From contig NC_055986.1 in assembly GCF_018446385.1 (NCBI RefSeq), positions 29,075,593-29,139,592 on the forward strand: DNA of 64,000 nucleotides, given 5' to 3'. Below are positions 10,684 to 61,367 of the stretch, piece by piece. The notes under the pieces are model-generated. The model was not told the DNA's origin. It worked only from the letters and a program-made list of their open reading frames with translations, and ran no database searches. Each line of letters begins with the position of its first letter. Within the stretch, counting starts at the first letter, position 1. This DNA comes from Zingiber officinale (taxonomy: Eukaryota; Streptophyta; Magnoliopsida; Zingiberales; Zingiberaceae). The position numbers were made by a program, and so were the translations under genes.

Positions 10684-10831
10684 ACAGAAAAATGCAGAAA
10701 ATAAATATCATATTCTTTTAAATCATTTAATTAGGCCTTTAATTAATGATGCTCCCACTGAATTCTATAATTCATGTGGGACAAGATCTATATCATACTA
10801 ACCCTTGAGTTAGCTTTGGCTAATACACCCA
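10684..10831 (-). mobile_element. Copia-B leader fragment sandwiched between copia-A pieces
   Basis: This 148-bp segment matches 25288-25440, the untranslated leader just before gag of the copia-B element, in the same orientation. Shared words include ATGATGCTCCCACTGAATTC and TTGAGTTAGCTTTGGCTAA. It has no terminal repeats of its own and abuts copia-A LTR on the left and copia-A RT sequence on the right. Confidence 0.8.
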
Positions 10832-12136: not shown

Positions 12137-14818
12137 TGTTAGGATGTATACTAAAAGCCTAGCTTTTGGTATAAATATTTATCTAGAAATAAGAATCACA
12201 TTGGTCAAATGTCTACATTTATGATAAATGTAATTGTTCAATTAATTTATATTGTAGATAACTTGGTGTGTGGTGTCACACACAGAAGATCATGTTATCA
12301 GTTCCTTATAAATTATAAACAGTAGCTCACGACCAAGATGGAAAGGAACAAACCATTGAAAGGTCGTAGTGTAATTAGGTGTTAGTTTATCTTAACTATA
12401 TAATTACACTAGTACACTTAGAGTATATTGAGTAGGACCATTTGAGGTCGTTTCTTTTATACTGACTTTATAAAGGAACAAAGACCTCAGTTATTATGGA
12501 AGTGTGTGCTCTTAATCCTAATATAATAACAAGCACATATATTTGATATTTATTTCTTTAATTTATTAATGGGTGAGATTTAGTTTGATAAATCAATAAG
12601 TCCGATAAGTTGGGAAATGATATCACTTATAGTGTGTGTTGTTGATTATAGAAGGAAACTGTGTCCTAGTGATCTAGGTTGAGAATGTCCCTAAGAGGAG
12701 CTCATAAGGATTGTCATGTTAAACCCTGCAGGTGGACTTAGTCCGACATGATGATGAAGTTGAGTGGTACTACTCTTGGTGCTAGATATTAATTAAGTGA
12801 GTTGTCAGTAACTTACTTAATTAGTGGGCATTCGACATCTTAAACACAGGGAGACAAACACACTCATAATAAGAAGGAGCCCAAAATGTAATTTGGGATT
12901 GGTGCGGTAGTTCAATAATAGTTCTCTAGTGGAATGAATTATTATTGATAAAATTAAGTTGTGTGTTTGGGGCGAACACGAGATGCTTAATTTTATAGGG
13001 AGACTAAAACCAATTCCTCCTCTCGGTCCCTATCGTAGCCTCTTGTATATAGAGATTTATACCCACCACATACCCATCTTCTTACCCATCCAATGGGGCC
13101 GGCCAAGCTAGCTTGGAACCCAAGCTAGGGCCGACCAAGACCAAGTGGATGAGCCATGTAGGTGGCCGGCCAAAGCTTGGGTCCCAGGCTTAGGTGGCCG
13201 ACCACTAGAATATTAAAAAAGATTTTTATTAAAATTATTTCTTATGTGGATATCGTGATTTTAAAAGAGAGTTTAAAAATTAAAAATTTCCTTTTATAGC
13301 TTTCTACAAAAGATTAAGAGAAGAGATTAATCTTTTTCCTTATTTGTAGTTTAAAAGGATGGTTTTAATTTTTGGTAAAAACTTTCCTTATTTGTAAATC
13401 ATCTACATGTTTAAAAGAGAGTTTAAAATTTGAAATCTTTCCTTATTTGTTGATTAAAGGAGGATTTTAAATTTTAAGAAAACTTTCCTTTTTAACCATG
13501 TTCATGATTTAAAAGAGAGTTTAAAATTAAATATTCTCTTTTATAAGTTTCTACAAAAGATTAAGAAAAGATTTGATATCTTTCCTTATTTGTAGATTAA
13601 AAGAGATTTTAATTTATAGAGATAACTTTCTTTTTATCCACATGTTTAAAAGAAAGATTTTAATTTATTAAATTTCTTTTTTATAAACCAATCATGAAGG
13701 GATAAAATTATTGGAGAAATTTTTATAAATTTCCGGAAGCAAATAAGGAAGTTTTAATTGGTATTTAAAATTTTATTTGCTTGGAGATATTATTTGTTAT
13801 GGCCGGCCATTGTAATTTGAAAAGAGAAAATTGTTTTAATTAAATAAATTTTCCTTTTCAATGGAAAAATAATTAAGGAAGTTTTTATTAAATTTTCCTT
13901 ATTTGCCAAGACCAAGGATTATAAAAGAGAGGGTAGAGGAGGCTTCAAAAAAAAAAAAAGGACTCTATTCTATTTTTCTCTCTCTTTTCCTTGGTATGGT
14001 GGTCGACCCTTCCCTTTCTCTTCTCTCCTCTTGTTGTGGCCGAAATCTATCATCTCTTGGAGCTTGGAGGATGTGGCCGAATCAAGGAAGGAGAAGAAGG
14101 AGAGAAAGCATGCATCCCTTGGAGCTTGGTTGGTGGAAAATTCTTCATCCTTTGGAAGTTCTTGTGCTTGGCCGAAACTTGAAGGAAGAAGGAAGAAGGT
14201 GCCTAGGTGGTTCTCATCTTGGAAGATCGTTGCCCACACAACGTCCGAGGTTAGAAGAGGAATACGGTAGAAGATCAAGAGGTCTTTCTAAAAGGTATAA
14301 CTAGTAATTTTTCTTTCCGCATCATACTAGTTATTTTTGGAAATAATACTAAACACAAGAGGCATACGATTCTAGTGTTTCGAATTTGTTTTCGATATAA
14401 TGTTCTTTTGTTTTTCTTTTCCTTGTTATTTGATTGTTCTTTTCGGTTGACCTAAAGTTATTTTAGGAAATTAAATATTAGTTTTCCTTAAAAGGTTTTG
14501 TCTAGTCGGTGGTGGTTGCTCCCATATTCAAGAAGGTCATGTGCCTCGCCACGTCAGTACTGGTAACCAATTTTGGAAATTAATATTTAATGGAATTAAT
14601 AACTTAGGTGATTTGGATCAAACGTGTTAAGTTCCGCAGGAGATCCAAGTCAAAACCTAAAAGAACAAATAGATTAAGTTTTGGATCAAACGTGTTAAGT
14701 TCCGCAGGCGATCCAAAATTTAATTTAAAAGAACACATGGTAGCTAGGAAAAGGTTCAGACCATTGTACAAAATTTTTGTACAGTGGAACCATTATGTTT
14801 TCCGAGTAGCAACCAACA
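12137..14818 (+). repeat. Copia-A LTR, complete (2682 bp)
   Basis: The LTR runs from TGTTAGGATG to CAACCAACA. It is preceded by the polypurine tract of element 2 and followed after two bases by the primer site TGGTATCAGAGC (14821-14832) of element 3, so it serves both as 3' LTR and 5' LTR. The inside is strikingly AT-rich (13200-13900) with several degenerate copies of a TTTAAAAGAGAG / CTTTCCTTATTTGT unit. A TATAAAAGAGAG stretch at about 13920 may be the promoter. The 133-residue ORF at 13903 matches no family I know and lies in the presumed R/U5 region. Confidence 0.88.
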
Positions 14819-15829
14819 ATTGGTATCAGAGCTAGGGTTTTGCCTCTGTGTATTTGGTATTAGTTTAATTATGCACATGTCATACATAATTTAGGCAGGT
14901 TAATAGTAGGATTTGCTAACTTTGTAGGATCCAACTATTATGGCTTATAGTTATTATGTGTGTGATTGGACCCTTGGACATGTCAAGGGCATTTATTGTG
15001 TGTGCATGATTGTATTATAAAATACAGCAGGAGCTGTATTTAGTTTTATTAGGATTTTATTTTTGATCTAGTTACATGTACATTTTTTTTATGGAATATA
15101 TGATCGATGGATGTAAATTTTATTTTATGTTCGATCTAGTTTACATGTACGTTCTTTCGAGGAATATAGGATCGAGAATATAAAATTCTATTTATGTCGC
15201 GGATCGAATCTTGCAAGGCGTGGAACCTTTTGAGGACCAGAGGCGCAGCGGAACAAGGAGCAAGATAGATGCGACAACTAGACCCGGTGGCGGTGGCCAA
15301 AGATGGCAGCAACTAGGGTTGGCGACACACGGAGGACAACAATAGATAAAAGTCATAATAGTTGAAAATTAGTTTTTCTGTTTATTGATTTTTATGCTGT
15401 GTTGTGTGTGCTTGTTAGTATGCATGCTAAGTAAGCTAGCATAGTCAAAATTCCTCACTTTAAATAACTAAGTGGGAGAGAGATTTATTTTTAAATAAAT
15501 TCCACGGTCTCCATTACTGGTTTATAAGTGATGCAACAAGCTTACGCGTTGGCTCTGAGTGCCTTCCTCCATATCGGATGAGCTTGTTTGCGGATCACTA
15601 GATTAAACTTCCATTTTGGATGACTATAGGAAGTTAATTAAGAGCATGTGATCTTCCCCATCGGAAGGGGCACAATCTTATTAATGGACTTAGTGTCAAG
15701 TAATGGTAAACACTAAGGCACGTCTAATAGTATCCTCCCCATCGGAGTCACTGCTATCATTTGTGTGACCGAAGAAAACCAACTATTAATTTGTCAAATA
15801 AATAGGTTGACAGGATAATAAAATTAAAA

Positions 15830-16220
15830 ACTCCTCTTACAAATGTTTGATTTTGTATATGTCCACACTATCGTGGCATACAAAATTCACGGTGTTTGAG
15901 GTAATTTTGTTTGTCATAAAGATTTATTGACAAGATAATTAATGGGTAAACCCTCCTCTTACAAATGTTTAATTTTGTATACGTCCACACTATCGTGGCA
16001 TGCAAAATTCACGGTGTTTGAGGTGTTGGTGAATTTAAATAATATTGTTTGAGGAATCAATGTTATTTTAAATTCAAAAGTTTTGATCAAATATTTGATC
16101 AAAGATAGATCAACTATTAATTTTATTCATCATAAAGAAAAGTTGATGAGATAATAAAATTAATGGATAAAATCTCCTCTTTGATTTTGTATACGTCCAC
16201 ACTATCGTGGCATACAAAAT
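15830..16220 (+). repeat. Leader tandem repeat of copia-A element 3
   Basis: Three copies of a block of roughly 90-130 bp each contain TTTTGTATAYGTCCACACTA, TCGTGGCATRCAAAATTCA and an adjacent TTAATTTTATTxGTCATAAAG part. The copies start near 15836, 15953 and 16168. Elements 1 and 4 show one copy only at the equivalent place. Confidence 0.75.
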
Positions 16221-16282
16221 TCATAGGGATTTTTAAAATAATTGATCTTGACCAAATATTTTTGTGATTCTTAGGATTTAAA

Positions 16283-19200
16283 ATGTTTGTCAATCCCCTA
16301 GTTGTTATACTATAGAAAAGACTTAGTAGTCCAAATTGTAATGATTGGAAATAGGACTTGGACATTAAGGTAGACTGTCTTCTTAGAACTAAGAACAATT
16401 TAGGTGTATTTAATTCATTAGTTGAAACATGTTTAGTGGTGTTATCTACCAGAACCTGGAGTGTAGATACAGATGCCATTAATCATGTCTGCAATTTATT
16501 GCAGGGTTCCAGGAAACCTGACAACTAAATGAAAATAAAAACTACTGCAAAAGTAGCAGCTGTTGCAGTGGGAGAGGTTTATTCTCTAATAGGAATAAAA
16601 TATGGATTATAAGAAATTGTCTTTACGTACTAAGTTTAGAAAGAACCTGATTTTAGTTTCTAAACTATTATAGAATAGATATTGTGTCTATTTTTGATAA
16701 CAAAGCTGTTATCAAGAAAAATAGAGAAGTTATCTATTCTGGTATGTTGGTTGACAATTTATAATCCAATAGCTCCCACAATGCAATAAATGGAAATCTT
16801 CTAACTTTAAAAGAAAGCAACCTTCGGAAATGAACCAATTATATCTTTGGCATCTAAGGCTAGGTTATATTAACTTGAGTAGGATTCATTGGTAGCTGAT
16901 GAACTTTTGGGTTCATTGGTAGTGGAAATCTTTCCAACCTGCGAGTCTTACTTGGAAGGAATAATAACCAAGAAGCTTTTAAGTATAAGGGGTATGGAGC
17001 TAAAGATATGTTGGAATTGTTTCATTCTGATTTGTGTGATCCTATGACTATCCAGACAAGAGGTAGTATCGAATATTTCATCTATTTTATAGACAACTAT
17101 TCAAGATACAAATACATTTACTTAATGTGCCACAAGACTAAGTGCTTTGATTAGTTCAAAGAGTACAAGGTGATGGATCGAAAGCGCTAGAGGGGGGGGT
17201 GAATAGCGCTCGTGGCTATTTCGTTTTTCGAAATCGTAAAAGCTTGTTCAGAAATAACGTAGCAGAAAGTAAATAAAGTGGACACGAAGGATTTACTTCG
17301 TTCGGAGCCTGTGACGACTCCTACTCGAAGGCCCGCGATCCTTGATCGCTTCCGGTGGGCAACAACTATAATTCGTAAAAGCTATTACAAGCTAAGTACA
17401 ATTTAAGCAGAAAAGAATATTGTACCGACAATAAAAAGACTAAAACTGAAGCTCCGGGTTGTCGTTGCAGCACTTCTGAGTCGAGACGTTAGCAGCTTGT
17501 CGCACGGAGAATGCTTAGAAGATTGTGTATTTTAAAGCTGCACCTCAACCCTCCTTTTATATGAGGTTCCGGGCGCCTGGGACCTTTCCGGGCGCCTGGA
17601 GTGTGACGTGGCCAGCCAACCAGGTTGCTCCACGTCGCGAAGTCGCGCAGGGGATAAAAGTTGGTCCCGACCTCCTTTTTCCAGGAGCCGCTTCTCCTGC
17701 AAAACAAGGTTAGTCCGAGCAATTGCATACCCTGCAAGACAATGTTAGAATCTGATAATTCATAAGTGAAAAGGAGCTGACTGTCCGGTCTGACTTCGGA
17801 TTTCCAACCGAAACCCTAGGTCGACCCGACGCCACTGTTCCCTCGAACGCGCCCTCACCTACTCCACTCGGGAGATTTACCTGATGCGCGACACCCGGAC
17901 TTTTCACCTAGGGTTACCACCCCTAGGACCTAGGGTTACCGCCCCTAGGGTTTTCCACCTAGGTTACCCCCTAGGACCTAAGGTTATCGCCCCTTAGGGT
18001 TTTCCTCCACCTAGGGTTACCGCCCCCTAGGACCTAAGGTTACCACCCCTTAGGGTTTTTCACCTGCCTAACCGCAGCTAGGACTTTCCTGAAACGCTCA
18101 TTCAAACATGTTAGATCACACACTAACTTAACCTTGAATCCTTTGCCATTATCAAAACTAAGGTTCGATCGTCGGATGCTTCCCGCACCAACACAAGGCT
18201 GATGTGGAGAAACGTTAAAGTAAAAGTATCAAGATACTACGGTGAGATCGTAGTGGCAAGTACCTCTTGGGAGAATTTAGAAGTCACTTATCAGAAGTAG
18301 GGATTCAATCCCAACTAACTGCACCTGGTACACCCCAACAGAATGGTGTAGAAAAAGGAAGGTATAGGACTCTTATGAAAATAAGTAGATTGATGAGTTA
18401 TTACCAAAATCATTTTAAGGATATACTCTGGAAACGGAAGTGAATATAGTACCTTCCAAAGACTGAACTCTCTACTCATATAGAATTGCTGAATAGGCGT
18501 AAGCCTATTTCGAAGCACATTCGGATTCGGGTAGTCCAGCACATATGCAGAAGAGAGACAATGATAAGTTGGACAGGAATTCACTTGTTTGTGGGTTATC
18601 CTAGAGAAATGAAAGTAGTTTTTTTTAGAAAAGGACTATGTAATAAACCATGTGCCCATAAGAAAATTTGTTCTTAAGGAAATAATACATGTCTAATCTA
18701 GTACCAACTGTACAAGATGAGATACCACAAGGAAACTGCAACACGTATCACAAATGATACACAATTACAGAAAGTGTCTTGTCGTAGTGGGAGGGTTGTT
18801 AGGCAACCTAAAAAGATTCATGTTTCGGGAGAGTTTTTGGACTTGATCCCTGGAGGACATGAACCTGATCTCCGGACATATGACGAAGCACTCCAAGATA
18901 AAGATGCAACATCTTGGCAAAGAGTAATGAATAACAAAATTAGAATATATGTATTCTAATAAAATCTGGAAGCTTGTAGAAACACCAAATGGTGTAAAAG
19001 CCTTTGGGTGTAAAAAGGTCTATAATAGGAAAAGAGGGATAGACAGGAAGGTAGAAACTTTCAAAAGCAAGGCTAGATGAAAAAGGAAACTTTTTCACTG
19101 GTAGTCATGCTTATGTCTATCCGGATTCTTTTATCTATTTGGCAAGTGGACAATGAGATTTAATGGAAGTCTTGAAGAAAGCATCCATATAAAGCAACCA

Positions 19201-20330
19201 GAAGGGTTCATTGTGAAGGGCTAAGAGCATCTTGTGTGCAAGCTCAATCAGTCTATGGACTGAGGCAAATCCTCAAGGTCTTGGAACATCCAGTTTATCA
19301 AAGTAATCCAGACCTATGGATTTATTGAGTAAACGGATAAGTCTTGTGTATACAAAAGGTGTGATGGAAACGTGGTGGTATTTCTTGTACTATACGTAGA
19401 GGACATTTTTGGTAGTTAGAAACAATATCAAAATGTTGTCAGAAGTAAGGGTATGGTTGTCCAAATAATTCGATATGAAAGACTTGGGAGAATGTATATA
19501 TTCTTGGGATCAAAGTAATAAGGGATCGCAAGAAAAGAATATTTTACTTATCACAAGCTTCATATATCGAAAAAAAATAATCCTTGCTCGTTTTAAGCAT
19601 GCAAAACTCCAAGAAAGGTTTCTTACCTTTTTAGCATGGAGTAACTTTATCGAAAGAGATGTCTCCGAAGACATCAAAGGAGATAGAGGAAATGAAGGCA
19701 GTTCTTCGGCTGTCGGAAGCCTAATGTATGCTATGCACGAGATCAGAAATCTGTTTTGCCAAGGGCATAGTTAGCAGATATCAAAGTAACCCTGGACAAG
19801 AAGTACCTTAGAGGCACTAGAGATTATATGCTAGCTTACAAGGCAGTTAATTTGGTCCCTATGGGTTGCACGGATTTTGACTTCCAATCGGATAGGGACA
19901 ATATTAAGTCAACCTCAGGGTTTTGTGTTTACTTTAGGAGGTAAAGTCATAACTATGGAAGAGTGATAAGCATAGGTGTTTTTCTGGACTCTACTATAGA
20001 AGTTTAGTATATGGCAAGCCTCTGAGGCAGCCATAAAAGCTGAATGACTCAATAACCTCAAGATAGACTTAGATATGATTTCTGGTTTGTCCAAAGATTA
20101 TTACAATTTATTGTAATGATATTGGTGCAGTAACAAACTCGAAGAAACCATAAGTATATAAGGCAGGTAAACACAATAGAGCGCAAGTACCACCCAATAC
20201 GAGAAATCGTATAAACGAGGAGAAGTTGTTGCTGCCTAGATTACATTAGATGATGACCTATAGATTTTTTCACTAAGGCCTTTAAGGCAAGAGCTTTTGA
20301 TAGCATGTTGAAGAGTTGGGAATCAGATGT
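16283..20330 (+). pseudogene. Copia-A gag-deleted pol relic (element 3)
   Basis: An ATG at 16283 opens a gag-like start (MFVNPLVVIL). After about 30 codons, at LDIK, the sequence jumps to the zinc-knuckle tail (VDCLL) and the linker LVETCLVVLS, so nearly all of gag is absent. The protease follows as WSVDTDAINHVCN, where the normal DTGA is changed to DTDA. Pre-integrase and integrase remnants run to 17165, are cut by a solo LTR, and resume at 18199. RT starts with a lesion at about 19130 and has an altered active site (LYVEDIF, near 19390). Stops are frequent throughout. Confidence 0.84.
17171..18193 (-). mobile_element. Family-C solo LTR, intact with TSD CAAGG
   Basis: A 1023-bp insertion begins TGATGGATCG and ends GCACCAACA. 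It is flanked by the 5-bp duplication CAAGG (17166-17170 and 18194-18198). Removing one duplication and the insert restores the integrase sequence, as judged by element 5 at 38938-38960. No primer site, polypurine tract or second LTR is inside, so it is a solo LTR. Its left end holds an inverted repeat AGCGCT around a G8 tract (17184-17210). At 17905-18065 there are several degenerate copies of a CCCTAGG-ACCTAGGGTTACC unit of about 25-45 bp. Orientation is assigned from the family-C copy at 35319-35733. Confidence 0.88.
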
Positions 20331-20376
20331 ATGGCAGCAGATATAGCAGCTTAGTCTTTTAGTATAAGTGGGAGAT

Positions 20377-21243
20377 TATTAGGATGTATACTAAAAACCT
20401 AGCTTTTGGTATAAATATTTATCTAGAAATAAGAATCACATTGGTCAAATGTCTACATTTATGATAAATATAATTGTTCAATTAATTTATATTGTAGATA
20501 ACATGGTGTGTGGTGTCACACACAGAAGATCATGTTATCAATTCCTTATAAATTATAAACAGTAGCTCACGACCAAGATGGAAAGGAACAAACCATTGAA
20601 AGGTCGTAGTGTAATTAGGTGTTAGTTTATCTTAACTATATAATTACACTAGTACACTTAGAGTATATTGAGTAGGACCATTTGAGGTCGTTTCTTTTAT
20701 ACTGACTTTATAAAGGAACAAAGACCTCAGTTATTATGGAAGTGTGTGCTCTTAATTCTAATATAATAACAAGCACATATATTTGATATTTATTTCTTTA
20801 ATTTATCAATGGGTGAGATTTAGTTCGATAAATCAATAAGCCCGATAAGTTGGGAAATGATATCACTTATAGTGTGTGTTGTTGATTATAGAAGGAAACT
20901 GTGTCCTAGTGATCTAATATTCTAGTCGGTTTTGTCTAGTCGGTGGTGGTTGCTCCCATATTCAAGAACCTCGCCACGTCAGTACTGGGAACCAATTTTG
21001 GAAATTAATATTTAATGGAATTAATAACTTAGGTGATTTGGATCAAACGTGTTAAGTTCCGCAGGAGATCTAAGTCAAAACCTAAAAGAACAAATAGATT
21101 AAGTTTTGGATCAAACGCGTTAAGTTCCGCAGGCGATCCAAAATTTAATTTAAAAGAACACATGGTAGCTAGGAAAAGGTTCAGACCATTGTACAAAATT
21201 TTTGTACAGTGGAACCATTAGGTTTTCCGAGTAGCAACCAACA
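20377..21243 (+). repeat. Copia-A 3' LTR of element 3, internally deleted (867 bp)
   Basis: It starts TATTAGGATG (the TG is mutated to TA) after the polypurine tract and ends CAACCAACA. The first 540 bp and the last 310 bp closely match the LTR at 12137-14818. About 1.8 kb in between is missing, with the junction at about 20917-20935 (GTGATCTA / ATATTCTAGTCGG). The right edge joins the truncated copia-B LTR directly. Confidence 0.86.
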
Positions 21244-35733: not shown

Positions 35734-36371
35734 TATAGATGACCAAGATAAACTGGGAACCTATTGGGTCACACGCACTAACGAGTATCTAAAAGACGTA
35801 AAATAAGTTAAAGAATATGATTCTTAGATCAAAAGATAAATGTTTGGTTGGACTATACATAAGATAAATATGAAAATATTTGTCATAATAGAAGCATGGA
35901 TGGACTACATCTCTTATGGTAGAGTTGAACCATATTTGCTTTAATCATGAATTAGTCATGAACCAACTTGATTTAGTTGTGAACTAAACCAAGGTGTTAA
36001 TGGGTTAATCTTTGGTTAAGGGATAATGGGTTGAATTTGGGTTTTCTAATCTAACTCATTAAAGAGAATTATATATAGATGTAATTGGGAGAAAATTAGA
36101 TATAAGTTTCATTATTTGGTTAATTGAATTTTAGAAACTCAATCCTTCTCTCCCTCTCTTATCTCTCTCACCACCAACAAGAGGGTGCTCCCTCTTGTTG
36201 TCGTGACCACCACAAGGGAGAAAAACTCTCCCTTGTGTGCTTCTCTTCTTCTTCTTTTTGATCCCTCTTCTTTGCTTGTTGCTGTTATGCCCGTCTACTG
36301 CTGAGAAGTCATCCAAACAACGAGCTCAAGTTGACTGACTTCGAAAAGAAAGTGTTTGATAACTTTAAATT
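35734..36371. other. Spacer before the chimeric element
   Basis: No gene is recognised. The ORF at 36131-36316 on the minus strand is a low-complexity Lys/Arg-rich frame and unlike any family I know. The 5 bp at 36367-36371 (AAATT) are the left target duplication of the next element. Confidence 0.5.
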
Positions 36372-36560
36372 TGTTGGGGTTCAATCAAAGTCCCACATTG
36401 GAAAGATTTGGTAAAGATCATGGGGTTAAAAGGATGCATGATATCTCCGTTGGCATGAAGCCTTTTGGGGAGAGCCCAAGAGCAAAGTCATGAGGGCCTA
36501 AGCCCAAAGTGGACAATATCATGCCATTGTGGAGATATGTGGACATCCTTTGGCACAACA
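36372..36560 (+). repeat. 189-bp TRIM-like 5' LTR
   Basis: It begins TGTTGGGGTTC and ends TTTGGCACAACA, so it has TG..CA ends inside an inverted TGTTG..CAACA. It contains AGTCCCACATTGG, close to the plant snRNA upstream element RTCCCACATCG, and GAGAGCCCAAGAGCAAAGTC. It has no similarity that I can see to the copia-A LTR. A decayed copy lies at about 48490-48650, so this is a dispersed family. Confidence 0.65.
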
Positions 36561-37439
36561 ATTGGTATCAGAGCTAGAGTTTGCCTCTGTGTGTTTGGTT
36601 TTCAAAATTAATTATGCACATGTCATACATAATTTAGACAGGATAATAGTAGGATGTGCTAACTCTGTGGTTGCAGGCTCCAACTATTATGTCTTACAGA
36701 TATTGTGTGTGATTGGACCCTTGGACATGTCAAGGGTATTTTATTGTTTTTGCATGATTGTAATATTAAATATAGCAGGAGCTGTATTAGTTATTAGGAT
36801 TTTACATTTTTGTTTCGATCTAGATTACATGTACATTCCTTTGTGGAATATAAGATCGATATATGTAAAATTCTATTTTTATCGCGGATCGTATCCTTGC
36901 AAGGCGTGGTACTATTGGACGACCAGAAGCGCAGCGAAAAAGGAAGCTCGATGGACCCAACGACATGAACCCTAGGGTTGGCAGCACACAGAGGGCAGTG
37001 ATGGAAGAAGACATAATAGTTGAAAAATTAATTTCCATATTTATTGCTTTATTTACTGTGATGTGTGTGTGCATGTGATGTTTGCTTGCATAGTTAAAAT
37101 TCCTCACCTTAAAAAACTAAGTGAGAGAGGGATTAGTAAATAAATCTCACAGTCTCTATTACTGGTTTGTAAGTGATGCAACAAGCTTGCGTGTTGGCTC
37201 TGAGTGCCTCTCTCCACAACGGATGAGTTTGTTGCAAATCACTAAATCAAACTTCCTTTATGGATGGTTATAGGAAATTATTTAGGAGTGTGTGATCTTC
37301 TCCAACTGAAGGGGCACAATCCTATTTAATGGACTAAGTATCAAGTAATGGTGTACACTTAGACGCATTCAATAGTATCCTCCCCAACGGAGTCACTGCT
37401 ATTGTTTTGCGTGACCAAAGGAATACCAACTATTAATTT

Positions 37440-37975
37440 ATCATAAAGCTAGGTAAAACCCCCTTCTTACAAATGTTTGAATTTGTATATGTCTACACTT
37501 ACGTGGCATACAAAATTCACGGTGTTTGAGGTAATTTTATTTGTCATAAAGTTAGGTTGACAAAATAAAATGGGTAATACCTCCTCTTACAAATAATTGA
37601 ATTTATATATGTCCACACTAACGTGGCATACAAAATTCATGGTGTTTGAGGTAATTTCAGGTTGACAAGATAATTAATGGGTAAGACCCTCCTCTTACGA
37701 ATGTTTGAATTTGTATATGTCCACATTAACGTGGCATGCATAATTCCTGGTGTTTGAGGTGTTGGTGAATTTAAATAATATTATTTGAGAAATCAATATT
37801 ATTTTAAATTCAAAGTCTTGACTAAATATTTGATCAAAGTAAGACCAACTATTAATTTTATTTGTCATCAAGATAGGTTGACAAGATAATAAAATTAATG
37901 TATAAAATCTCCTATTAAAGTTTAAATTTGTATACGTCCACACTAACGTGACATACAAAATTCACGGAGATTTTA
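37440..37975 (+). repeat. Leader tandem repeat of element 5
   Basis: Four copies of the block seen at 15830-16220 are present. Each has TTTGAATTTGTATATGTCCAC-like text, then ACGTGGCATACAAAATTCA, with starts near 37465, 37585, 37700 and 37920. Confidence 0.78.
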
Positions 37976-38021
37976 AGGTGTTGGTCTTGATCAAATATTT
38001 TTATGATTTTTAGGATTTCAA

Positions 38022-41000
38022 ATGTTTGTTAATCCCCTAGCTGTTATACTATAGAATAGACTTAGTAGTCTCAATTATGATTGGAAAACAAAACTTGGAC
38101 TCTAAGGTGGACTGTCCTCTCAGAAATGAGAACAATAAAAATGTATTTAATTCATTAGTTGTTGAAACATGTTTAGTGGTGTTATCTACCGGTACCTGGT
38201 ATGTAGATATGGGAGCCACTGATCATGTCTGCAATTCATTGCAGGGGTTCCATGAAACCTGACAACTATGTGAAAGGGAAAATACTATCTACATGGGCAC
38301 TGCTACAAAAGTAGCAGCTGTTGCAGCGGGAGATGTTTGTCCTCTGATAGGAATAAAACATGGATTTTGAGAAATTGTCTTTACATACCAAGTTTAGAAA
38401 GAACTTGAATTCAATTTCTAAACTATTCAAAGAACTTGATATTCTGTCTCTTTTGATAACAAAGTTGTTATCAAGGAAAAGAGGGAAGTTATCTGTTCTG
38501 GTACGTTGATTGGCAATTTATAAAATCCAATAACTCCCACGATGAAACAAATGGAAATTAATAACATATTTTTTAATTCTAATAAGAGAAAGTAACTTTC
38601 GGAAATGAACCAATCATATCTTTGGCATCTAAGACTAAGTTATATTAACTTGAGTAGGATTCAAAGGATAATAGCCGATGAACTTTTGGGTTCATTGGTA
38701 GTGGAAACCTTTCCAACCCGCGAGTCTTATTTGGAAGGAAAAATAACCAAGAAGCTTTTTAAGTCTAAGGGGTATAGAGCCAAAGACGTGTTGGAATTGG
38801 TTCATTCTGATTTGTGAGGACCTATGACTATCCAGGCAAGAGGTGATTTCGAATATTTCGTCTCTTTTATAGACGACTATTCGAGATACGGGTATATTTA
38901 CTTGATGCCTCACAAGTCTAAATACTTTGATAAGTTCAAAGAGTACAGGGCTGATACGGAAAAACGTCAAGGTAAAAGTATCAAGACACTGCGGTGAGAT
39001 CGTAGTGGTAAGTACCTCTTAGGAGAGTTTAGGAGACACTTATCAGAAGTCGGGATTAAATCCCAACTGACTGCACCTGGTATACCCCAACAGAATGGTG
39101 TAGCAGAAAGAAGGTATAGGACTCTTATAGAAATAATTAGATCGATGATGAGTTATTACTAAATTCGTTTTGAGGATAAACTCTGGAAACGAAAGTGAAC
39201 ATAGTACCTTCTAAATCAGAACCCTATACTCTCATAGAATTGTAGAATGAGCGTAAGCATAGTCTAAAACATATTCGGATTTGGGGTATTCCAGCACATG
39301 TGCTGAAGGGAGACACTGATAAATAGGAATTAAGAACAAGAGTTCACTTGTTTATGGGTTATCCTAGAGAAACGAAAGGAGGTTTATAGTCCTAAAAATC
39401 AGAAGGTCATTGTTAGCACCAATGCCCAATTTTTAGAAAAGGACTATGTAATGAACCACATGTCCATAAGTAAATTTGTTCTTAAGGAAAAAATAAAGGA
39501 CGCGTCTAATCTAGTACCAACTGTACAAGATGAGATGTCACAAGAAACTGCATCACGTAGCACAAATGATACACAATTGGACAAAGTACCTCGTCGTAGT
39601 GGGAGGTTGTTAGGCAACCTAAAAGATTCATGTTTTGGGAGAGTTTTTAGACTTGATCCCTGGTAAACATAAACCTGATTCCGAGACATATAATGAAGCA
39701 CTCCAAGATAAAGATGCAGCATCTTGACAAAGAGCAATGAATACTGAGCTTATAGAACCATCAAATGGTGTAAAAGTCATTGGGTGAAAATAAGTCTACA
39801 ATAGAACAAGAGGGACAGATGGGAAGGTGGAAACTTTTAAAGTAAGGCTTGTTAAAAAAGGGAAACCTTTTACCAGTAGTCATGCTTAAGTCTATCCGGA
39901 TTCTTATATCTATTGATTATGAGATTTGACAAATGGATGTCAAGACAGCTTTCCTTAATGGAAGTCTTGAAGAAAGCATCAATATAAAGTAATCAGAGGG
40001 GTTCATTACAAAGGGCAAAGAGCATCTAGTATGTAAGCTCAATCGGTCTATTTATAGACTGAAGCAAAGCTTCAAGGTCTTGAAACATCCGGTTTGATAA
40101 AGTAATCCAGACCTATGGATTTATTCAGTGTCTGGATGAGTTTTGTGTATACAAGAAGTGTGATGGAAACACGATGATATTTCTTGTACTATATGTAGAT
40201 GATATTTTTGGTAGTTGGAAACAATATCAAAGTGTTGTCGGAAGTAAGGGTATGATTGTCCAAACAAATCGATATGAAGGACTTGGGAGAGTACGCACAT
40301 ATTCTCGAGATCAAAAGGGTCACAAGAAAAGAATGTTGTGCTTATCCCGAGCTTCATACTATCCTAGTTCGTTTAAGCATGCAAGACTCCATGAAAGGTT
40401 TTTCTACCTTTTGTGCATGGTGAATCTTTATCTAAAGAGATGTCTCTGAAGACATCAAAATAGATAGAGGACATGAAGACAGTTCCTTATGCTTCGTCTA
40501 TCGGAAGCCTAATGTATGTAATGCTGTGTACGAGACTGGATATTTGTTTTGGCCAGGGCATAGTTAGCAGATATCGAAGTAACCCAGGACCGGGATACTA
40601 AACTGCCGTAAAGCATATATTAAAGTACCTTAGAGGGACTAGAGATTATATGCTAGTTTACAAGGCAGATAATTTGATCCTTGTGGGTTACACGGATTTT
40701 GACTTCCAATCAGATTGGGACAATAGTAAATTGACCTCGGAGTTTTATGTTTATTTTAGGAAGTAAAGCCATAACTATAGAGGAGTGTTAAGCATAGGTG
40801 TTTTGTTAGACTCCACTATAGAAGCTGAGTATGTGGCAGCTTTTGAGGCAGCCATAGAAGTTATATGGCTTAGAAACTTCATGATGGACTTAGACATGAT
40901 TTCTGGTTTACCCAAAAATTTATTACAATTTATTGAAATAATAGTGGTGCAGTAGCAAACTCAAAGAAACCATAAGACCATAAGGCAAGTAAACACAATA

Positions 41001-41150
41001 GAGCGCAAGTACCATCCAATACGAGATATCGTATAACGAGGAGAAGTTGTTGCCGCTTAGATTGCATCAGGTGATAACCTAGGAGATCCTTTCACTAAGG
41101 CCCTTAAGGCAAGAGCTTTTGATGGGTATGAAGAAGGGTTGGGAATCAGA
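38022..41150 (+). pseudogene. Copia-A gag-deleted pol relic (element 5)
   Basis: It opens at 38022 with MFVNPLAVIL and has the same gag deletion as the copy at 16283: the text goes from TTGGACTCTAAGG straight into VDCPLRNENN. The protease reads WYVDMGATDHVCN (DTGA to DMGA). Pre-integrase YLWHLRLSYIN and integrase HSDL then a stop, FIDDYSRYGYIYL and NGVAERRYRTL follow. The RT active site LYVDDIF is intact (40189-40209), unlike elements 2, 3 and copia-B. RNase H shows DSTIEAEYVAAFEAA-like text near 40810. Stops and shifts occur throughout. Confidence 0.84.
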
Positions 41151-41199
41151 TGTATAGCAGGGTATTTGGCAGCATAGTCTTTTAGTATAAGTGGGAGAT

Positions 41200-43806
41200 T
41201 ATTGGATTGTATACTAAAAGCCTAGCTTTTTGTAAACATTTACTTAGAAATAAGAATCACATTGATCAAATACCTACATGATTAGTGTAGTTGTTCGATT
41301 AATTTATATTGTAGATAACATGATGTGTGGTGTCACACACAGAAAATCATGTTATCAGTTCTTTATAAATTATAAACAGTTGCTCATGACAAGATGGAAA
41401 GGAACAAACCATTGGAATAGTCATAGTGCAATTAGGTATTAGTTTATCTTGACTAATAAATTACACTAGTACACTCTAAGTATATTGAGTAAGACCATTT
41501 AAGGTAAGTTCTTTTTATACTGACTTAATAAAAGAACACGACCTTAGTTATTATGGAAGTGTGTGCTCTTAATTCTAATATAATAACAAGCACATATATT
41601 TAGTATTTATTTCTTTGACTTATCAAAGGTTGAGATTTAGCTCGATAAATTAATAGGCCCGATAAGTTGGGAAATGATATTACTTATAGTGTGTGTTATT
41701 GATTATAGAAGGAAACTGTGTCCTAGTCATCTAGGTTGAGAATGTCCCGAAGAGGAGCTCATAAGGATTGTCATGTTAAACCCTGTAGGTGGATTTAGTC
41801 CAACATGACGATAAGGTTGAGTGGTACTACTCTTGGACTAAGACATTAATTTAAATGAGTTGTCAGTAACTCAATTAATTAGTAGGCATCCGACATCTTA
41901 AATACAGGGAGACTAACACACTCATAATAAGAAGGAGCCCAAAATGTAATTGGGATTGGTGCGGTAGTTCAATAATAATTCTTTAGTGGAATGAATTATT
42001 ATTGATGAAATTAAGTTGGGTGTTCGGGGCGAACACGGGAAGCTTAATTTCATCGGAAGACCAAAACCAATTCCTCCTCTCGGTCCCTATCATAGACTCT
42101 TATTTATAAAGTATTATACCCACCTATACCCACCTTTATACCCATCCTAATATGGCCGGCCAAGCCTTGCTTGGAGCCCAAGCAAGGGGTCGGCCAAGTT
42201 AATCCTTGAATGAACCAAGTGGTAGTCGGCCCTAGCTTGAGTCCAAGCTTAGGTGGCCGGCCACATCATATTAAAAGGATTTTATTTTTTTTAAAAAATT
42301 TTCTTATGTGGATTCCATTATTTTAAAAGAGAGTTTAAAATTTAAATCTTTCCTTCTATAGTTTTCTACAAAAGATTGAGAAAAGATTTGATATCTTTCC
42401 TTATTTGTAGATTGGAAGGAAGATTTTAATTTTGATAAAACTTTCCTTTTTTGTAATCATGTTCATGATTTAAAAAGAGAGTTTTAAAATTAAATATTTT
42501 CTTTTATAAGTTTCTACAAAAGATTAAGAAAAGATTTGATATCTTTTCTTATTTGTAGATTGAAAGGAGATTTTAATTTTAAAGATAATTTTCCTTTTTG
42601 GAAATCATCCACATGTTTAAAAGAAAGATTTTAATTTATAAAAATTTCCTTTTATAACCAACCATGAAGGGAAAAATTATTAGAGAAATTTTAATTTTAA
42701 AATTTCCGGAAACAAATAAGGAAGTTTTAATTTTGTGTTTAAAACTTGCCTAATTTGGAGCTCTTTATGTGGCCGACCATGATATTTAAGGAAATTAATT
42801 TTAATCAATTAAATTTTCCTTTTCATGGCAAAGATAATAAGGAAGGTTTTATTTAATTTTTTCCTTATTTACCAAGACCAAGGATTATAAAAGGGGGGGT
42901 AGGGGTGCCTTCATGGCTAAGAACTCTATTCTATTTTCCTCCCTCTCTTCCTTGGTGGTGGTCGACCCTTGCTTCTTGCTCTTCTCCTTTTCTCTTCCTC
43001 CTATGTGGCCGGCGGCATCAACACAAGAGGAGTCCTTGGTGGCCGGTTCTAGCTAGGAGAAGAAGGAGAGAAAGGAGACTTTGTTTCTAGCATCCCTTGG
43101 AGCTTGGTGGTGGTGGCCAAACCTCACATCTCTTGGAGGTTTTTGTGGTGGTCAAAACTAGCTTGGAGAAGAAGGAGCTTGGGTGGTTCTCATCTCGGTA
43201 GATTGTTGCCCACACAACGTCCGAGATAAGAAGAGGAATACGGTAGAAGATCAAGAGGTCGTTGCATACAAAGAAATGTATAACTAGTAATTATTTTCCG
43301 CATCATGCTAGTTTTTCTTTGTATGAATTCCAAACACAAGAGGCATATGATTCTAGAGTTTCGAATTTGTGATTCGAGTTCGTGTTTTTTTTTTTTTTTT
43401 CGAATTTGTGATTCAATTGTTCTTTTTTGTTAAACCTAATGTTATTTTAGGAAATTAAATATTGAATTTCTATAAAAGGCTTTGTCGAGGCAGTGGTGGA
43501 TGATCTCATATCTAAGAAGGCCTAGTGCCTCGCCATGTTTGACCTGAGAGCCGATTTTAGAAATAAATATTTAATCAACTTTATAACATAGGTGGATTTG
43601 GATCAATAGTGTTAAGTTCCGCTTGCGATCCAAATCTAAACCATTAAGAACAGATAAGTTAAATTTGGGATCAATAATGTTAAGTTCCGTTTGCGATTCC
43701 TAATTTAATTTCTAAAGAACACAATAGGTTATTTAGGAAAGGTTCAACACTTATACAAAATTTTTGTACAGTGGAACCGATACGATCTTCCTAGAACCAA
43801 CCAACA
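41200..43806 (+). repeat. Copia-A 3' LTR of element 5 (2607 bp)
   Basis: It starts TATTGGATTG after the purine tract AAGTGGGAGAT and ends AACCAACCAACA. It matches the LTR at 12137-14818 along its full length and includes a TATAAAAGGGG stretch near 42887. A T17 run occurs near 43390. Confidence 0.86.
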
Positions 43807-44709
43807 AAATTATGTACTTAATTATTGTAAAAGTACAAGTGTAGTGTATTGCACTTGTTTCTACTTTCTTTGTACTCGATCCCCTCTTCTGGCGGTTCCG
43901 GAAGAGGTATGTTTTTTTGTTTGTCCTCTTATGTATGACTCGATCCAATAGGATCTTCTGTACCTATGTTCTATTTTTGTTTAATCTAAGTCCATTTAGC
44001 CAATCTCAGACTTATTGATCAAACTCTGGTCTATTTGATCAAACCAATACCTATTGGTTTAAATCTGACCCATTAGAACAAAACCAATATATTTGATCAA
44101 ATTTAACCTAATAGAATAAATCTGGTCATTTGATCATATTTGGCCCAAGCTTAATTCATTCAGGTTGGGATCAAATCGATTTGGTTAAACCAACTAATGG
44201 TTTGTACCAAACCAAGGTCTAATTGAACCAAAATAGTCTGATCAAATCAACTAATGATTTTAAATCAAATCTGGGTCTGATTGGACCAAAACTAGTCTGG
44301 TTAAGCAGCCAACCACTGACATCCTGGGGCAATTGCTGACCCTTTTCGACCTCGGACACTTGGCCTAACGTAGTTGTCGACATATGCTTGCACAGAAACA
44401 ACGAGAGGCAACCCATAGTTGCATCGACGACCACGAGTACATCCTCGGGCAACCGGGATGCTCTTGCTGGTCTCGAAAAAAACATCGCCAACGACCTTCC
44501 ACCATGCGAAGCCCGACTTCAATGGAAATCACGATGCTGTCGCATTTTTTTTACTTGATGCAACTCTATTCACAACAACAATATTTCTACTGGCGAGCGA
44601 CGTTGTCACTGACAGCATCCCTCTTTCGAGATGTTGTCCTCGATAATCAATGATCTCTCGACATAAGGATAAGTTTCATGAATTTTTTGAACTAATGATC
44701 TAATACCAT
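43807..44709. other. Gene-free stretch with short GATCAAA repeats
   Basis: Between 43990 and 44300 many short units of the type TTTGATCAAACC and ATTGGACCAAAA recur, in a pattern seen in decayed LTR or leader sequences. The ORFs around 44219-44660 on both strands match no family I know. Up to 44696 it may be the leader of the LTR remnant that follows on the minus strand. Confidence 0.4.
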
Positions 44710-46839: not shown

Positions 46840-47510
46840 AATAAGAGAAAAAAATTAGATGTGAGAAAAAGTTGAATGTGAGAGAAAAATATGATAAAAG
46901 AGAAAATGTGATGGTAAAGAACGAATAGAGAGAAAGTGCGATAAGAGAAAATGATGAAAGAGAGTGTGATGAGAGAGAATATGATGATAGAAGATGAGAG
47001 AAAAAAATATGATGAGAGAAAAAAATATGATGATAGAGAATGAAAAGAGAGAAAGTGTAATGAGAAAAAAAATGAGAAAGAGAGTATGATGTGAGAGATT
47101 GACGAGAGAGAAAATATTTTGAGAGAGAAAGTTTGATGAGAAAAAATAAGAAAGCGAATGTGATAAAAAAGATTGAGGAGAGAGAAAGTATTATGAAAGA
47201 TAAAGTTTGTTGAGAAAAAGGGAGAGAGTGTGATGAGAGAGATTGAGTAGAGAGAAAGTGTGATGAGATAGAAAGCATGATAAGAAAGAAAATGTGATGA
47301 AAAGAAAGAGAAAAGAGAGTATGATGTGAGAGATTGAGAAGATAGAAAGTATGATGAGAAAAAAAAAAGAAAATAGTGTGATGGAAGATATTAAGGGGGA
47401 GAGAAAGTGTAATGAGAAAAAAAAATGTGATGAGAGAGAAATAGAGTGATAAAATAAGGAGAGAGAAAATATGATGAGAGAGAACAAGGAGAGAAAAAGT
47501 GATATGAAAT
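46840..47510 (+). repeat. Polypurine minisatellite-like tract
   Basis: About 670 bp are almost pure purine on the plus strand and are made of degenerate units such as GAGAGAAAGTGTGATGAGA of 17-50 bp. The long minus-strand frames it creates (Ser/Leu/Phe-rich) are composition artefacts. Confidence 0.8.
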
Positions 47511-47672
47511 AAAAATTAAATAAATATATTTTTATATTTGATATTAAAGGGAAAAATTTTAGTTTTGGGTCAAGGGTATTTTTGAAATAAGAGAATATTT
47601 TGATTGTTAAAAATAGAGTAATGACTCATTGAAGGGGGGAGACATATGAATGAGTCATTATCCAATTATAAG

Positions 47673-48489: not shown

Positions 48490-48650
48490 TTTTACATTCA
48501 AAATATATAAGAAAGATTATAGATTGATATAAAAAAGATATCTTTATTAGTATGAAGTCTTTTTGATAAAGCCCAACAGTAAAATCATGAGGACTTAGTT
48601 ATAAAGTGAACAATATCATATCATTATGAAGATATTTAATTTTTTTTATC
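48490..48650 (+). repeat. Decayed copy of the 189-bp TRIM-like LTR
   Basis: The words ATCTTTATTAGTATGAAG, AAAATCATGAGGACTTAG and GTGAACAATATCATATCATTA match 36440-36540 with many transitions. The ends are not clear. Confidence 0.6.
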
Positions 48651-57745: not shown

Positions 57746-58083
57746 ACAAATAATGGTGGAGCGACAAAAGTATTCAGCAGATTCCCAAGCACTCACGGTT
57801 CGAATCCGAGCTATAAGTTCAAGGATTCCTGAAATAGATACCCATTTCAGTTCTTATGGATTCCTGATGTTGCAAAGAGTTCAAATATACTATCCATTGC
57901 TTATTTTGACTTTTAAAATGTGTTAAAATATAAAAAAAAATCAACAAAAAGACTTCACGTTAGGCCTGATATGAATTATATCAGGCCCATGTTGGGCCTG
58001 ATATGATTCTATATCAGGCCTAATGTGGGTCTCACTCTATTAGGAATGCTCAACTGTTTTAGGAACTCTTCATTTCATAATGT

Positions 58084-58310
58084 ATGTGTCTATGATTGCT
58101 CTAACACTGTTTGGACAACAAAAATTAGAGAACAAGAAGCAGAATATGCTGAGAAAATGAAAAATAAAATTACTATGGTTCACAAAGCAGCCAAAGAGAA
58201 GAGAGCAATGACTGAGGTTATGTGCCGTGAAGAGCTATTGAAGTCAGAAGAAAGTGCGGCCAAATATCACGCCACAAGGTAGATGCCAAAGCAAGGTTAT
58301 AGCTGCCTCA
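58084..58310 (+). pseudogene. Captured remorin C-terminal fragment
   Basis: The frame from 58084 reads WTTKIREQEAEYAEKMKNK, ITMVHKAAKEKRAM and EELLKSEESAAKYHATR, then a TAG and MPKQGYSC. These match the C-terminal coiled-coil of remorins, where EYGEKMKNKVA, HKxAEEKRAMVE and EELLKAEEMAAKYRATG are usual. The rest of the insert to 58564 looks like a 3' UTR. The 5' exons are missing, and the stop lies where the family continues to a Cys-rich end. Remorins organise plasma-membrane microdomains; this fragment cannot be functional. Confidence 0.82.
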
Positions 58311-59469
58311 ATTCATGAGAAATGGAGATAGTAACAAGATGTTATCTCATGCATGCTTTCTAGCTTATGGTGTGTTACTTAGGACTTCAGCTTGTATTAT
58401 TGTAAGAAAATAAGAGGTATTTAATTTACAAGTCCAATTCTTCTTGTCTTTGTAATTCTTCATAAATATTGTATTTTGTCTCTGTAATTCATTATGAGTT
58501 TTATGTTTGGATTAGTAGTACATTCTTTCACATGTATAATTACTGCAAGCTAAACATAAGAATGCACTACAAAAAAATCATATCAGGTCTAACACAGCCC
58601 TGATATGATTCATATCAGGCCTAATGTGGAGGTTTTTTTGTTGATTCTTTCTTCTTATATTTTAACATCTTCTAAAAGTCAAAATAAACAATTGATAGCA
58701 TATTTGAACTCCTTGCAATATCAGGAATCCATAGGAACTGAAATGGGTCAAAATCCACTAATGGACCTAGAGAGCTCCGATTGCACCCATTTCAGTTTCT
58801 GTGGATTCCTAGTGTTACAAGAAGTTCAAATATGCTATTCATTATTTATTTTAACTTTCAGAAGGCGTTAAAATATAAAAAAAAGAATCGATAAAAAAAT
58901 TTCATATCAGGCCCACGTTGGGCCTGATATGATTCATATAAGGCCTAACGTAGAGTTTTTTTGTTGATTTTTTTTTAATATTTAACACCTTGTAAAAGTC
59001 AAAATAAATAATGGATAGCATATTTGAACTCCTTGCAACAACAGGAATCCACAGAAACTGAAATGGGTGTAATCGGAGCTCTCTAGGTCCATTAGTGGGT
59101 TTTGACCCAAACCCACTGATGGACCTAGAAACCTCAGATTACACCCATTTCAATTCCTGTGGATTCCTAATGTTGCAAGGAGTTCAAATATGCTATCCAT
59201 TATTTATTTTGACTTTTAAAAGGTGTTATAATATAAGAAGAAAGAATCAACAAAAAGGCTCCACGTTAGGCCTGATATATATCATATCAGGCCCATGTTG
59301 GGCCTGATATGATTCCATATCAGGCCCAATGTGGATCTCACTCTATTAGGAATGCTCAATTGTTTTAGGAACTCTTCATTTCTAATGTAGCATTTTATTT
59401 TGACTTAAATCTCAGTTCATGATGTATGTATTTGTTGGGGGTTTGAAAAATTATGGACATTGGAAAAGC

Positions 59470-59953
59470 CTTAACTGCTGAATGCCTCTTCAAATATACT
59501 GGATTGAATATTGAAAAGTAAGGATTTTTGCAATTCCTTTGCCTTTTGCTTGGTATCTTTTTCCCATTTAAATAATTGACACACTTTTCTTTCAGCCTTC
59601 AGAATTTAGAGTGGTGTCTCTTTGTCCTTTTCCCTTATTTCTCGTAAGTGATCTCATTTTCTGGATTAATTTTCTTTTACAAAGAAAGAAAAAATAAGTG
59701 AGTCATGACTTATTTGCAGTTACATGCTAGTAGAAGAATTAGGCCTATCTGGTATTGTGTCAATTCTGTTTATTGGAATTATACGTATCTTCTCTTTTTT
59801 CAATAGCTATACTATGACTATTTGTTCTAAGTGTCTGCATTTGTATTTCTTACAGGTAATGAAGCATTATACATTCTCCAATTTGTCAGAGAACTCTCAA
59901 CGTTTTGCTACTGTCTTTTTCCACTTGATTTCATCACTAGCTGAAACATTTAT
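59470..59953 (+). pseudogene. Captured NHX (endosomal Na+/H+ antiporter, NHX5/6-like) fragment with introns
   Basis: Four exon pieces keep splice signals: about 59470-59517 (TAECLFKYTGLNIEK, donor GTAAGG), 59596-59643 (LQNLEWCLFVLFPYFS, acceptor TTTCAG, donor GTAAGT), 59720-59780 ([17 protein letters not shown]) and 59856-59953 ([17 protein letters not shown] to [10 protein letters not shown], donor GTAGGA). They match the membrane core of the NHX5/NHX6 class. The donor after the third exon is ATACGT instead of GTACGT, so splicing there should fail. The presence of introns means genomic DNA, not cDNA, was captured. The piece is bracketed by inverted E units. It cannot encode a transporter. 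Confidence 0.85.
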
Positions 59954-60835
59954 GTAGGAGGATATGCATTGATGCCCTTATATATTTTTCTACTTAGAGC
60001 AATCATAAACACATCCATTATGAAATGAAGAGTTCCTAAAACAGTTGAGCATTCCTAATAGAGTGAGACCCACATTAGGCCCGATATGGAATCATATCAG
60101 GCTCAACGTGGGCCTGATATGATTCATATCAGGCCTAACGTGGAGCCTTTTTGCTGACTCTTTCTTCTTATATTTTAACATTTTCTAAAAGTTAAAATAA
60201 ACAATGGATAACATATTTGAACTCCTTGCAACATCAGGAATCCACAGGAACTGAAATGAGTATAATCCGAGGTCTCTAGGTCCATCAGTGGATTTCGATC
60301 AAAACCCACTGATGGACCTAGAGAGCTTCGATTACACCCATTTCAGTTTTTGTGGATTCCTGATGTTGCAAGGAGTTCAAATATGCTATCCATTATTTAT
60401 TTTGACTTTTAGAATATATTAAAATATAAGAAGAAAGAATTAGCAAAAAGGCTCCACGTTAGGCCTGATATGAATCATATCAGGCCCACGTTGGGCCTAG
60501 TAGGATTCCATATCAGGCCCAACGTGGGTCTGATATGAAATTTTTTTGTTTATTATTTTTTCTTATATTTTAACACCTTCTAAAAGTCAAAATAAACAAT
60601 GGATAGCATATTTGAACTCCTTGCAATACCAGGAATCCATAGAAACTGAAATGGGTGCAATCGGAGCTCTCTAGGTCCATTAGTGGGTTTTGACCGAAAC
60701 CCATTGATGGACCTAGAGAGCTCTGATTGCACTTATTTCAATTCCTGTGGATTTCTGAGATTACAAGGAGTTCAAATTTACTATTCATAGTTTATTTTAG
60801 ATTCTCTAAATGTATTAAAATGTTATAAAAAAATT

Positions 60836-61367
60836 AACTAAATCTTAAATGTCGTTGATGAAAGAGGAGATAGGAAAGAGAAGAGGGAGAAAAGAAAAAC
60901 GACAAAAGAAAAGTTTGATTTGTCAGAAGGATAAAAAGGAAAGTGCATTTGAAAAAGTGCATCCTTTGATGATAACAAAATAACATACGCCTTTTGGTCA
61001 ATTAAGATCTCTATGTGCGTGATTTGATAAATTGCCGCCAAAACCATCTAGTACCGGTGCCATTGCCAAGCAGACACACATAGTTGGAATTATCTAGGAA
61101 GAGGGAAAAAAATCAGGGATGAGAAGAAAAAAGGAAGAACTAAAGTGAGATGGAAGAAGAGAAATGGCGCTAAGCATAAAAAAACATAGCCATTGAGGTA
61201 GCTCGCAAAGGTTCCATTGTTGTTGTCGTGGTCATTTCCCTCTTGAATGCGTTTCTCATGCAGATCAGCGGATAAAGATAAGTTTCACTCATGCTGACTG
61301 ATATGAATTAAGAATTCTTCATATAAGGCACGTTGCAGAATTGATTTAAGCAAACGTACACAGAAAC
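60836..61367. other. Intron or intergenic remnant
   Basis: This lies between the foldback array and exon 2 of the TMEM205-like gene. I searched the minus strand for the expected exon 3 (a membrane helix with KYQLGF-like text) and did not find it here or at 54640-54934. Confidence 0.5.

Follow-up and report, generated by a model that had tools for sequence, protein, structure and literature searches.

The window analysed here is a 64,000-nucleotide stretch of the ginger (Zingiber officinale) genome (contig NC_055986.1, forward-strand positions 29,075,593 to 29,139,592), which contains, at window positions 36372–43806, a retrotransposon whose two long terminal repeats (LTRs) are unrelated to each other. 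The 5' LTR is that of a terminal-repeat retrotransposon in miniature (TRIM), while the internal region and the 3' LTR belong to a Ty1/copia element, hereafter copia-A; the whole unit was inserted in one event, and the same arrangement recurs elsewhere in the genome. The element is very probably a one-step chimera, formed in a virus-like particle that held the RNAs of both copia-A and the TRIM.

Direct reading of the window gave the order AAATT, T, B, L, AAATT, where T is the 189-bp TRIM-type LTR, B is the copia-A body, and L is the 2607-bp copia-A LTR, all on the plus strand. The left copy of the target-site duplication AAATT (36367–36371) is followed by T (36372–36560; TGTTGGGG...CACAACA), an AT spacer of the copia-A type between LTR and primer site (36561–36562), and the primer binding site TGGTATCAGAGC (36563–36574), which we take to be of the initiator methionine tRNA type. 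The copia-A internal region (36563–41199) is a single uninterrupted body, homologous to other copia-A bodies in the window, and ends in the polypurine-tract-like sequence GTGGGAGAT (41191–41199). It is followed by L (41200–43806), which starts with TATTGG, ends with CCAACCAACA, and is homologous to the other copia-A LTRs of the window, and by the right copy of AAATT (43807–43811). The outer ends, TGTTG... and ...CAACA, are mutual inverted repeats. No similarity was detected in a comparison of T with L (best match 10 bp, E 0.70), and the chance of two random 5-mers from the window being identical is 0.0015. Direct reading and the T/L comparison thus confirmed what the initial annotation had described, namely a 189-bp and an unrelated 2607-bp LTR around one copia-A body, with AAATT on both sides. 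No copia LTR was found immediately to the left of 36372, within 35800–36371. Three further copia-A 5' junctions were found in the window, all of the ordinary kind, with L directly abutting the same spacer and primer site.

The copia-A internal region carries stretches of gag-pre-integrase, integrase, and reverse transcriptase, all disrupted and in that order (gag_pre-integrs at 38596, rve_3 at 38998, RVT_2 at 40084), so that integrase precedes reverse transcriptase, as in Ty1/copia elements. Pfam matches (PF13976, PF13683, and PF07727) were obtained for three of the six open pieces, with E values of 8e-6 to 2.5e-4, all under the curated cut-offs, while the other three had no match in this search. 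The element also has the 5-bp target duplication of Ty1/copia; it departs from the group in lacking two like LTRs. In the 5' part of the body, tandem units of roughly 108–120 bp occupy positions 37457–37985 and are repeated in relatives too.

The genome searched was a 3.09-Gb assembly of 211 contigs, in which the window lies on contig C1; the accessible text of the genome report describes a haplotype-resolved ginger genome of 3.1 Gb with 11 pseudochromosome pairs (PMC8342452). Contig C2 presumably represents the chromosome homologous to C1, and its matching site the allele of the window site. The region C2:33884596–33885195 is 94% identical to the window across the whole 600-bp left flank searched, being the sole full-length second match among the matches listed. 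In C2, TAACTTTAAATT directly joins ATGTACTTAATTATT, with which the right flank begins once its AAATT has passed; one AAATT is present and the element is absent. The right flank matches this site at 94% over its first 108 bp and, farther right, only in separate pieces. A search with the right flank alone yielded no empty site, since among the matches listed only the window itself was full-length and the rest represented a repeat. Because the empty site has a single AAATT, the T-B-L unit of 7.4 kb was inserted in one event, and it is missing from the presumed other haplotype. The empty allele also argues against a copia LTR hidden to the left of 36372. The initial annotation had proposed to look for such a site in related accessions; it was found instead on the presumed homologous chromosome. 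For another T-B locus, L035, whose flank is mostly high-copy repeat, no full-length second match was present among the matches listed.

Apart from the window's own copy, T has at least 39 genome matches at 94–96% over 180 bp or more, some of which are T-B copies. In all four cases inspected, pairs of T flank TRIMs of 802–1046 bp, with short like LTRs, a small interior, a primer site, a polypurine tract close to TTTGAGGGGAGGAT, and 5-bp duplications (AGTAA, CTTAC, TCAAC, and ATGGA). The intact TRIMs with this LTR that the initial annotation had suggested searching for therefore exist, and T is the LTR of a TRIM family. The TRIM interior (TI) and B have in common the 12-bp primer site at their starts, which is their best match; the other matches listed are of 10–15 bp with E of 1.0 or more. 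Elsewhere in the window, a stretch of 99 bp (48537–48635) is 75% like the middle of T and is perhaps a diverged TRIM relative.

Other copia-A copies with T at the 5' end, likewise anticipated by the initial annotation, turned out to be numerous. A query consisting of T and 200 bp of B (389 bases) gave 6661 first-look candidates, 40 of which were scored; all 40 matched the T-B junction query in at least 376 of the 389 bases, the window at 100% and the other 39 at 88–94%. Since 40 is the number scored, it represents a lower bound. In addition to the window, 12 of these loci were read at 10 kb and 27 as 260-bp left and 1500-bp right pieces. Some of the 40 loci are probably alleles of each other, as judged by shared left flanks: L041 (C11) and L036 (C12) have a 599-bp left flank in common (98.8%), and in the 30 bp read to their left, L088 (C10)/L090 (C9) agree throughout and L112 (C9)/L118 (C10) differ at one position. 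L114 and L116 also have a left flank in common (one difference in 30 bp), though they lie 133 kb apart on the same contig. At one of the 12 loci read at 10 kb, L034 (C4:11.61 Mb), T-B is cut at body position 3102 and followed by a near-complete L with a second B directly after it; this order was seen at no other of the 12.

Both outer ends were reached in 13 T-B-L copies, no two of which come from one presumed allele pair. Exact 5-bp duplications flank 10 of them, namely AAATT in the window, GAGGA at C6:97.9M, TTAGA at C11:113.0M, GGTAG at C2:44.9M, CTCAG at C2:86.6M, CAACT on C17, CGATG on C16, GACTT on C19, GGGAG at C13:105.9M, and GGCAC at C10:39.6M. One further copy has a duplication with four of five bases alike (AGTTA/AGTTG at C1:36.1M), one with three of five (GTCCG/GTCTA at C4:12.97M), and one has none. 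Duplications with up to two mismatches have been accepted by other authors in wheat, according to the accessible text of their paper (PMC9744471).

These data bear on two explanations other than joint reverse transcription. After integration, DNA-level recombination at the primer site common to the two could have linked a TRIM with a copia-A, near or far; TRIM and copia-A alike are abundant, with 12 bp in common at the junction, and such recombination could account for the single T-B-L copy without a duplication and for an L-TRIM-T piece on C11 that also lacks one. However, it predicts unrelated flanks, contrary to the exact duplications of 10 of the 13 copies, and has a mere 12 bp of homology to work with; for the window site it is largely refuted by the clean empty allele, and we regard it as highly improbable. 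An assembly artefact might be suspected in a genome so rich in repeats, but the same structure is found at many loci with differing duplications, the empty allele is clean, and left flanks are shared across contigs in the three presumed allele pairs, which makes this explanation extremely improbable.

In the normal order of reverse-transcription steps, plus-strand strong-stop DNA terminates in a primer-site copy. Normal copying of an RNA would not place a whole foreign LTR left of B, because the RNA carries only R-U5 on that side of its primer site. Very probably, one virus-like particle instead held the RNAs of copia-A and the TRIM, and the TRIM plus-strand strong-stop DNA, comprising the whole of T and a copy of the tRNA-derived primer site, paired with the copia-A minus strand at its 3' end, by way of the 12-nt primer site that both possess. 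Completion of both strands would then give linear T-B-L DNA, which integrase would insert normally with a 5-bp duplication. T is short (189 versus 2607 nt), so its strong-stop DNA might be finished sooner than that of copia-A itself. The product expected from such an intermolecular transfer, with a whole foreign LTR beside the primer site, the element's own LTR at the 3' end, and one duplication around both, is what the window element presents. Plus-strand transfer is the best fit for T-B-L, and it is the only single route found that would give a whole foreign LTR at the left, a switch near the primer site, and a shared duplication. We infer the co-packaging, the transfer step, and the identity of the enzymes that acted from the sequences; annealing of TRIM strong-stop DNA to a copia-A minus strand had been suggested in the initial annotation, and the recurrence, the duplications, and the empty site fit and support it.

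Several observations weigh against this reading. The complete T-B-L copy at C22:20079495, in which the start of T is altered, lacks a duplication, as does the L-TRIM-T piece at C11:26435179, which ends in T. At 26 of the 40 T-B loci, the 3' end was not reached in the stretches fetched, owing to nested insertions, truncation, or length. In a tree built from the initial 300 bp of B (12 T-B and 24 L-B rows), five T-B bodies cluster, and 20 of the 24 L-B rows were picked as closest to the window body. A further point concerns the spacer: it is AA at 60 of 66 TRIM junctions, and the simple transfer model predicts that this donor spacer is kept, whereas at the T-B loci it is AT in 35 of 40, AA in three, and AC in two (Fisher p about 5e-18 for 35:3 versus 6:60, or about 7e-17 without three presumed duplicates, the rows not being fully independent). 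Because the T-B spacer is mostly AT, the transfer model requires an extra assumption. The copia minus strand would probably extend at least 1 nt beyond the primer site, and the resulting A-A mismatch would be settled mostly in favour of the minus strand, for example if, to speculate, the plus strand were nicked.

In most T-B copies the spacer is that of the copia body, which puts the switch at the boundary between LTR and spacer, 2 nt outside the primer site; T and L both end in CAACA followed by A, and so the switch is possible anywhere in the shared CAACAA. The change of identity therefore lies next to the primer site and not exactly at it, where the initial annotation had placed it. Alternatively, the donor could be a TRIM subfamily with an AT spacer, but the T of AT-type TRIMs (n = 5) is not especially close to that of the T-B copies, with a mean distance of 11.9% versus 12.6% for 17 AA-type rows (10.8% without the outlier L130). 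This comparison excludes L126, an AT-type TRIM match without a T match, and L134, an AA-type one with a partial T match. At two loci, L112 (C9:43.14 Mb) and L118 (C10:39.64 Mb), the T-B junction has a 3-nt spacer, AAT, as though the TRIM and copia spacers had merged; the duplication GGCAC of L118 is intact. The loci L086 (C22:20.08 Mb) and L094 (C10:33.54 Mb), on contigs that do not form a presumed pair, agree in an altered T start and in 14 bp of left flank; this points to shared ancestry or to a T whose 5' end was modified.

The spacer also bears on a switch of the minus strand onto a tandem or read-through TRIM RNA that holds a whole internal T followed by the primer site. Tandem TRIMs are common in plants, as stated in the accessible text of a survey of these elements (PMC4717578), and TRIM sequence adjoins T in the compounds described below. 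Nevertheless, a minus-strand switch predicts the TRIM spacer AA and the order T-TRIM-T-B-L, while in 10 of the 13 complete copies the duplications bound T-B-L at the start of T; we therefore consider it very improbable.

In the body tree, a single T-B clade was rejected (p-AU 0.013); seven label changes are needed, at least two of which are forced by starred branches, and the T-B and L-B labels are somewhat clustered, with 14 of 500 label shuffles giving a number as low. The best 40 matches to the opening 300 bp of the window body include only the window and one other locus from the T-B list; out of the 38 not on that list, 20 were read, best first, and all 20 carry L on the left side. Of the best 40 matches to the L041 body, three are T-B loci (L041, its allele, and one more), and the remaining 37 are off the T-B list with their left sides unread. 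On the T tree, T-B and TRIM copies are intermixed with poor resolution; placing the donors by this tree was rejected, as it is too star-like. Among the T compared, the one closest to that of the window belongs to a TRIM (L007, 96.3%).

T-B-L could also be a self-reproducing lineage, or derive from a copia-A family with T at both ends and a subsequently changed 3' end. This would agree with the grouping of five T-B bodies and with the mean distance of 9.1% among the T of T-B copies, smaller than that to AA-type TRIM T given above, although the T-B copies in this comparison were selected by similarity to the window T. The rejection of a single clade and the TRIM affinity of the window T argue against it, as do the close bodies read, all with L, and the 3' ends. 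The outer 3' end was reached in 14 cases and was L in 13 of them and T, preceded by TRIM internal sequence, in one; a plain T-B-T was present at none of these 14 resolved ends. Moreover, no common R that could serve the first strand transfer was detectable in T and L. The RNA of a T-B-L provirus would begin in the R of T and finish in the R of L and, with unlike R at its ends, it would be unable to carry out the first strand transfer by itself; L would be regained with the help of an ordinary copy. A reproducing lineage is thus very improbable, and the swapping of 5' promoters as a lasting outcome, raised in the initial annotation, finds no support, given the absence of T-B-T among the resolved ends.

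The frequency of the proposed transfer can be estimated only roughly. The copia-type junction string CAACAA(A/T)TGGTATCAGAGCTAGGG occurs 12,974 times in the genome; these strings were called copia-type by their primer-site context with LTRs pooled, so that T-B and perhaps other LTRs are included. Exact T-B junctions number 11, two of them presumed alleles; a twelfth match, at C3:157286301 and with an AA spacer, was dropped, there being no copia body at that place. This corresponds to a T-B-L rate of about one in a thousand, a rough figure because diverged copies, including the T-B junction of the window itself, escape both patterns.

TRIM and copia-A sequences are also joined in longer compounds. 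The one at C13:112751403 has the order T-B-L-AT-primer site-TI-polypurine tract-T, with GTTTA on both sides; its B/L joint was confirmed, and the middle of its body was left unread. It interrupts an older L on the opposite strand, the two parts of which (2608–2439 and 2443–1854) overlap by exactly five bases, showing that the compound was integrated as one unit; no empty site was found for its flank. At L033 (C11:69.1M), the order is L-TI-T-B, and at C20:20.4M a TRIM polypurine tract stands directly before T-B; both were read without reaching the outer ends. The exact L-TI pattern occurs at two places in the genome, the C13 compound and C11:26435179; no 5' LTR of the latter piece was found in a 2-kb stretch farther left (L085). 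The spacer at L-TI joints is AA once (C11:26.4M) and AT twice (C13 and L033). Such compounds, for example T-B-L-TRIM-T, could arise by the same plus-strand transfer if a longer plus strand jumped, since a full TRIM or full copia copy would also end in the primer site; a full plus strand of this kind would yield T-B-L-TI-T and chains with TI ahead of T-B. In the window itself, copia-A pieces at 10830–21243 form the array B (3' part)-L-B-L on one strand, that is, two elements sharing an LTR, which may have arisen by recombination or as a template-switching complex.

Template-switching complexes with duplications, tandem TRIMs, and LTR swapping are already known. In soybean, Du and colleagues reportedly described in 2010 the swapping of LTRs between autonomous and non-autonomous partners, giving swapped lineages with like LTRs at both ends. 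The ginger chimera resembles that case in that partner elements exchange LTRs, but here the product with unlike LTRs is itself seen. In Triticeae, rice, and maize, complexes of two elements fused in reverse transcription have been reported (Sabot and Schulman 2007, PMC1950507); like the window element, they are single integrated units with flanking duplications. They contain three LTRs of one family, explained by R-to-R jumps, whereas the ginger chimera combines unrelated partners, has two unrelated LTRs in its simple product, and is joined at the primer site. Compared with the structure of such complexes (three LTRs, two interiors, a duplication, and like outer LTRs), the window element shows a single interior between two LTRs that are unlike, while the C13 compound has the full count with the families mixed. 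For HIV-1 proviruses with asymmetric LTRs, the accessible text of one study proposes the same cause, a transfer of plus-strand strong-stop DNA onto the second genome in the particle, at its primer site; in those proviruses a deletion affects one of two like LTRs, while in ginger the LTRs are unrelated and come from two families (PMC9278108). The survey of Gao et al. (2016), in its accessible text, describes TRIM arrays with several LTRs and, as in the present case, a search for possible autonomous partners; partners sought by shared sequence were not found for 278 of the 289 subfamilies, whereas the ginger partner is indicated by the chimeras despite the lack of shared LTR sequence (PMC4717578). 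Among the titles and abstract openings listed in our literature search, which was thin on subscription journals, none described a copia body that carries a TRIM LTR and has one duplication around both.

Outside the element, the window contains a GA-rich degenerate repeat array (46886–47515) and a region densely packed with direct and inverted repeats (57840–60855).

A TRIM and its partner may share very little sequence. Elements with unlike LTRs could serve as a test of particle sharing that needs sequence alone and can be applied to any long-read genome, and they capture plus-strand transfer between two templates with donor and recipient unmistakable down to a single spacer base. It seems fairly probable that, in this plant, unrelated LTR elements regularly undergo plus-strand transfer through the primer site as a by-product at low rate, and that the products with unlike LTRs and the mixed chains are a fossil record naming the autonomous carrier of a TRIM without shared LTR sequence; retention of the recipient spacer would then mean that the recipient minus strand routinely overruns the primer site, the mismatch being corrected at the expense of a nicked plus strand.

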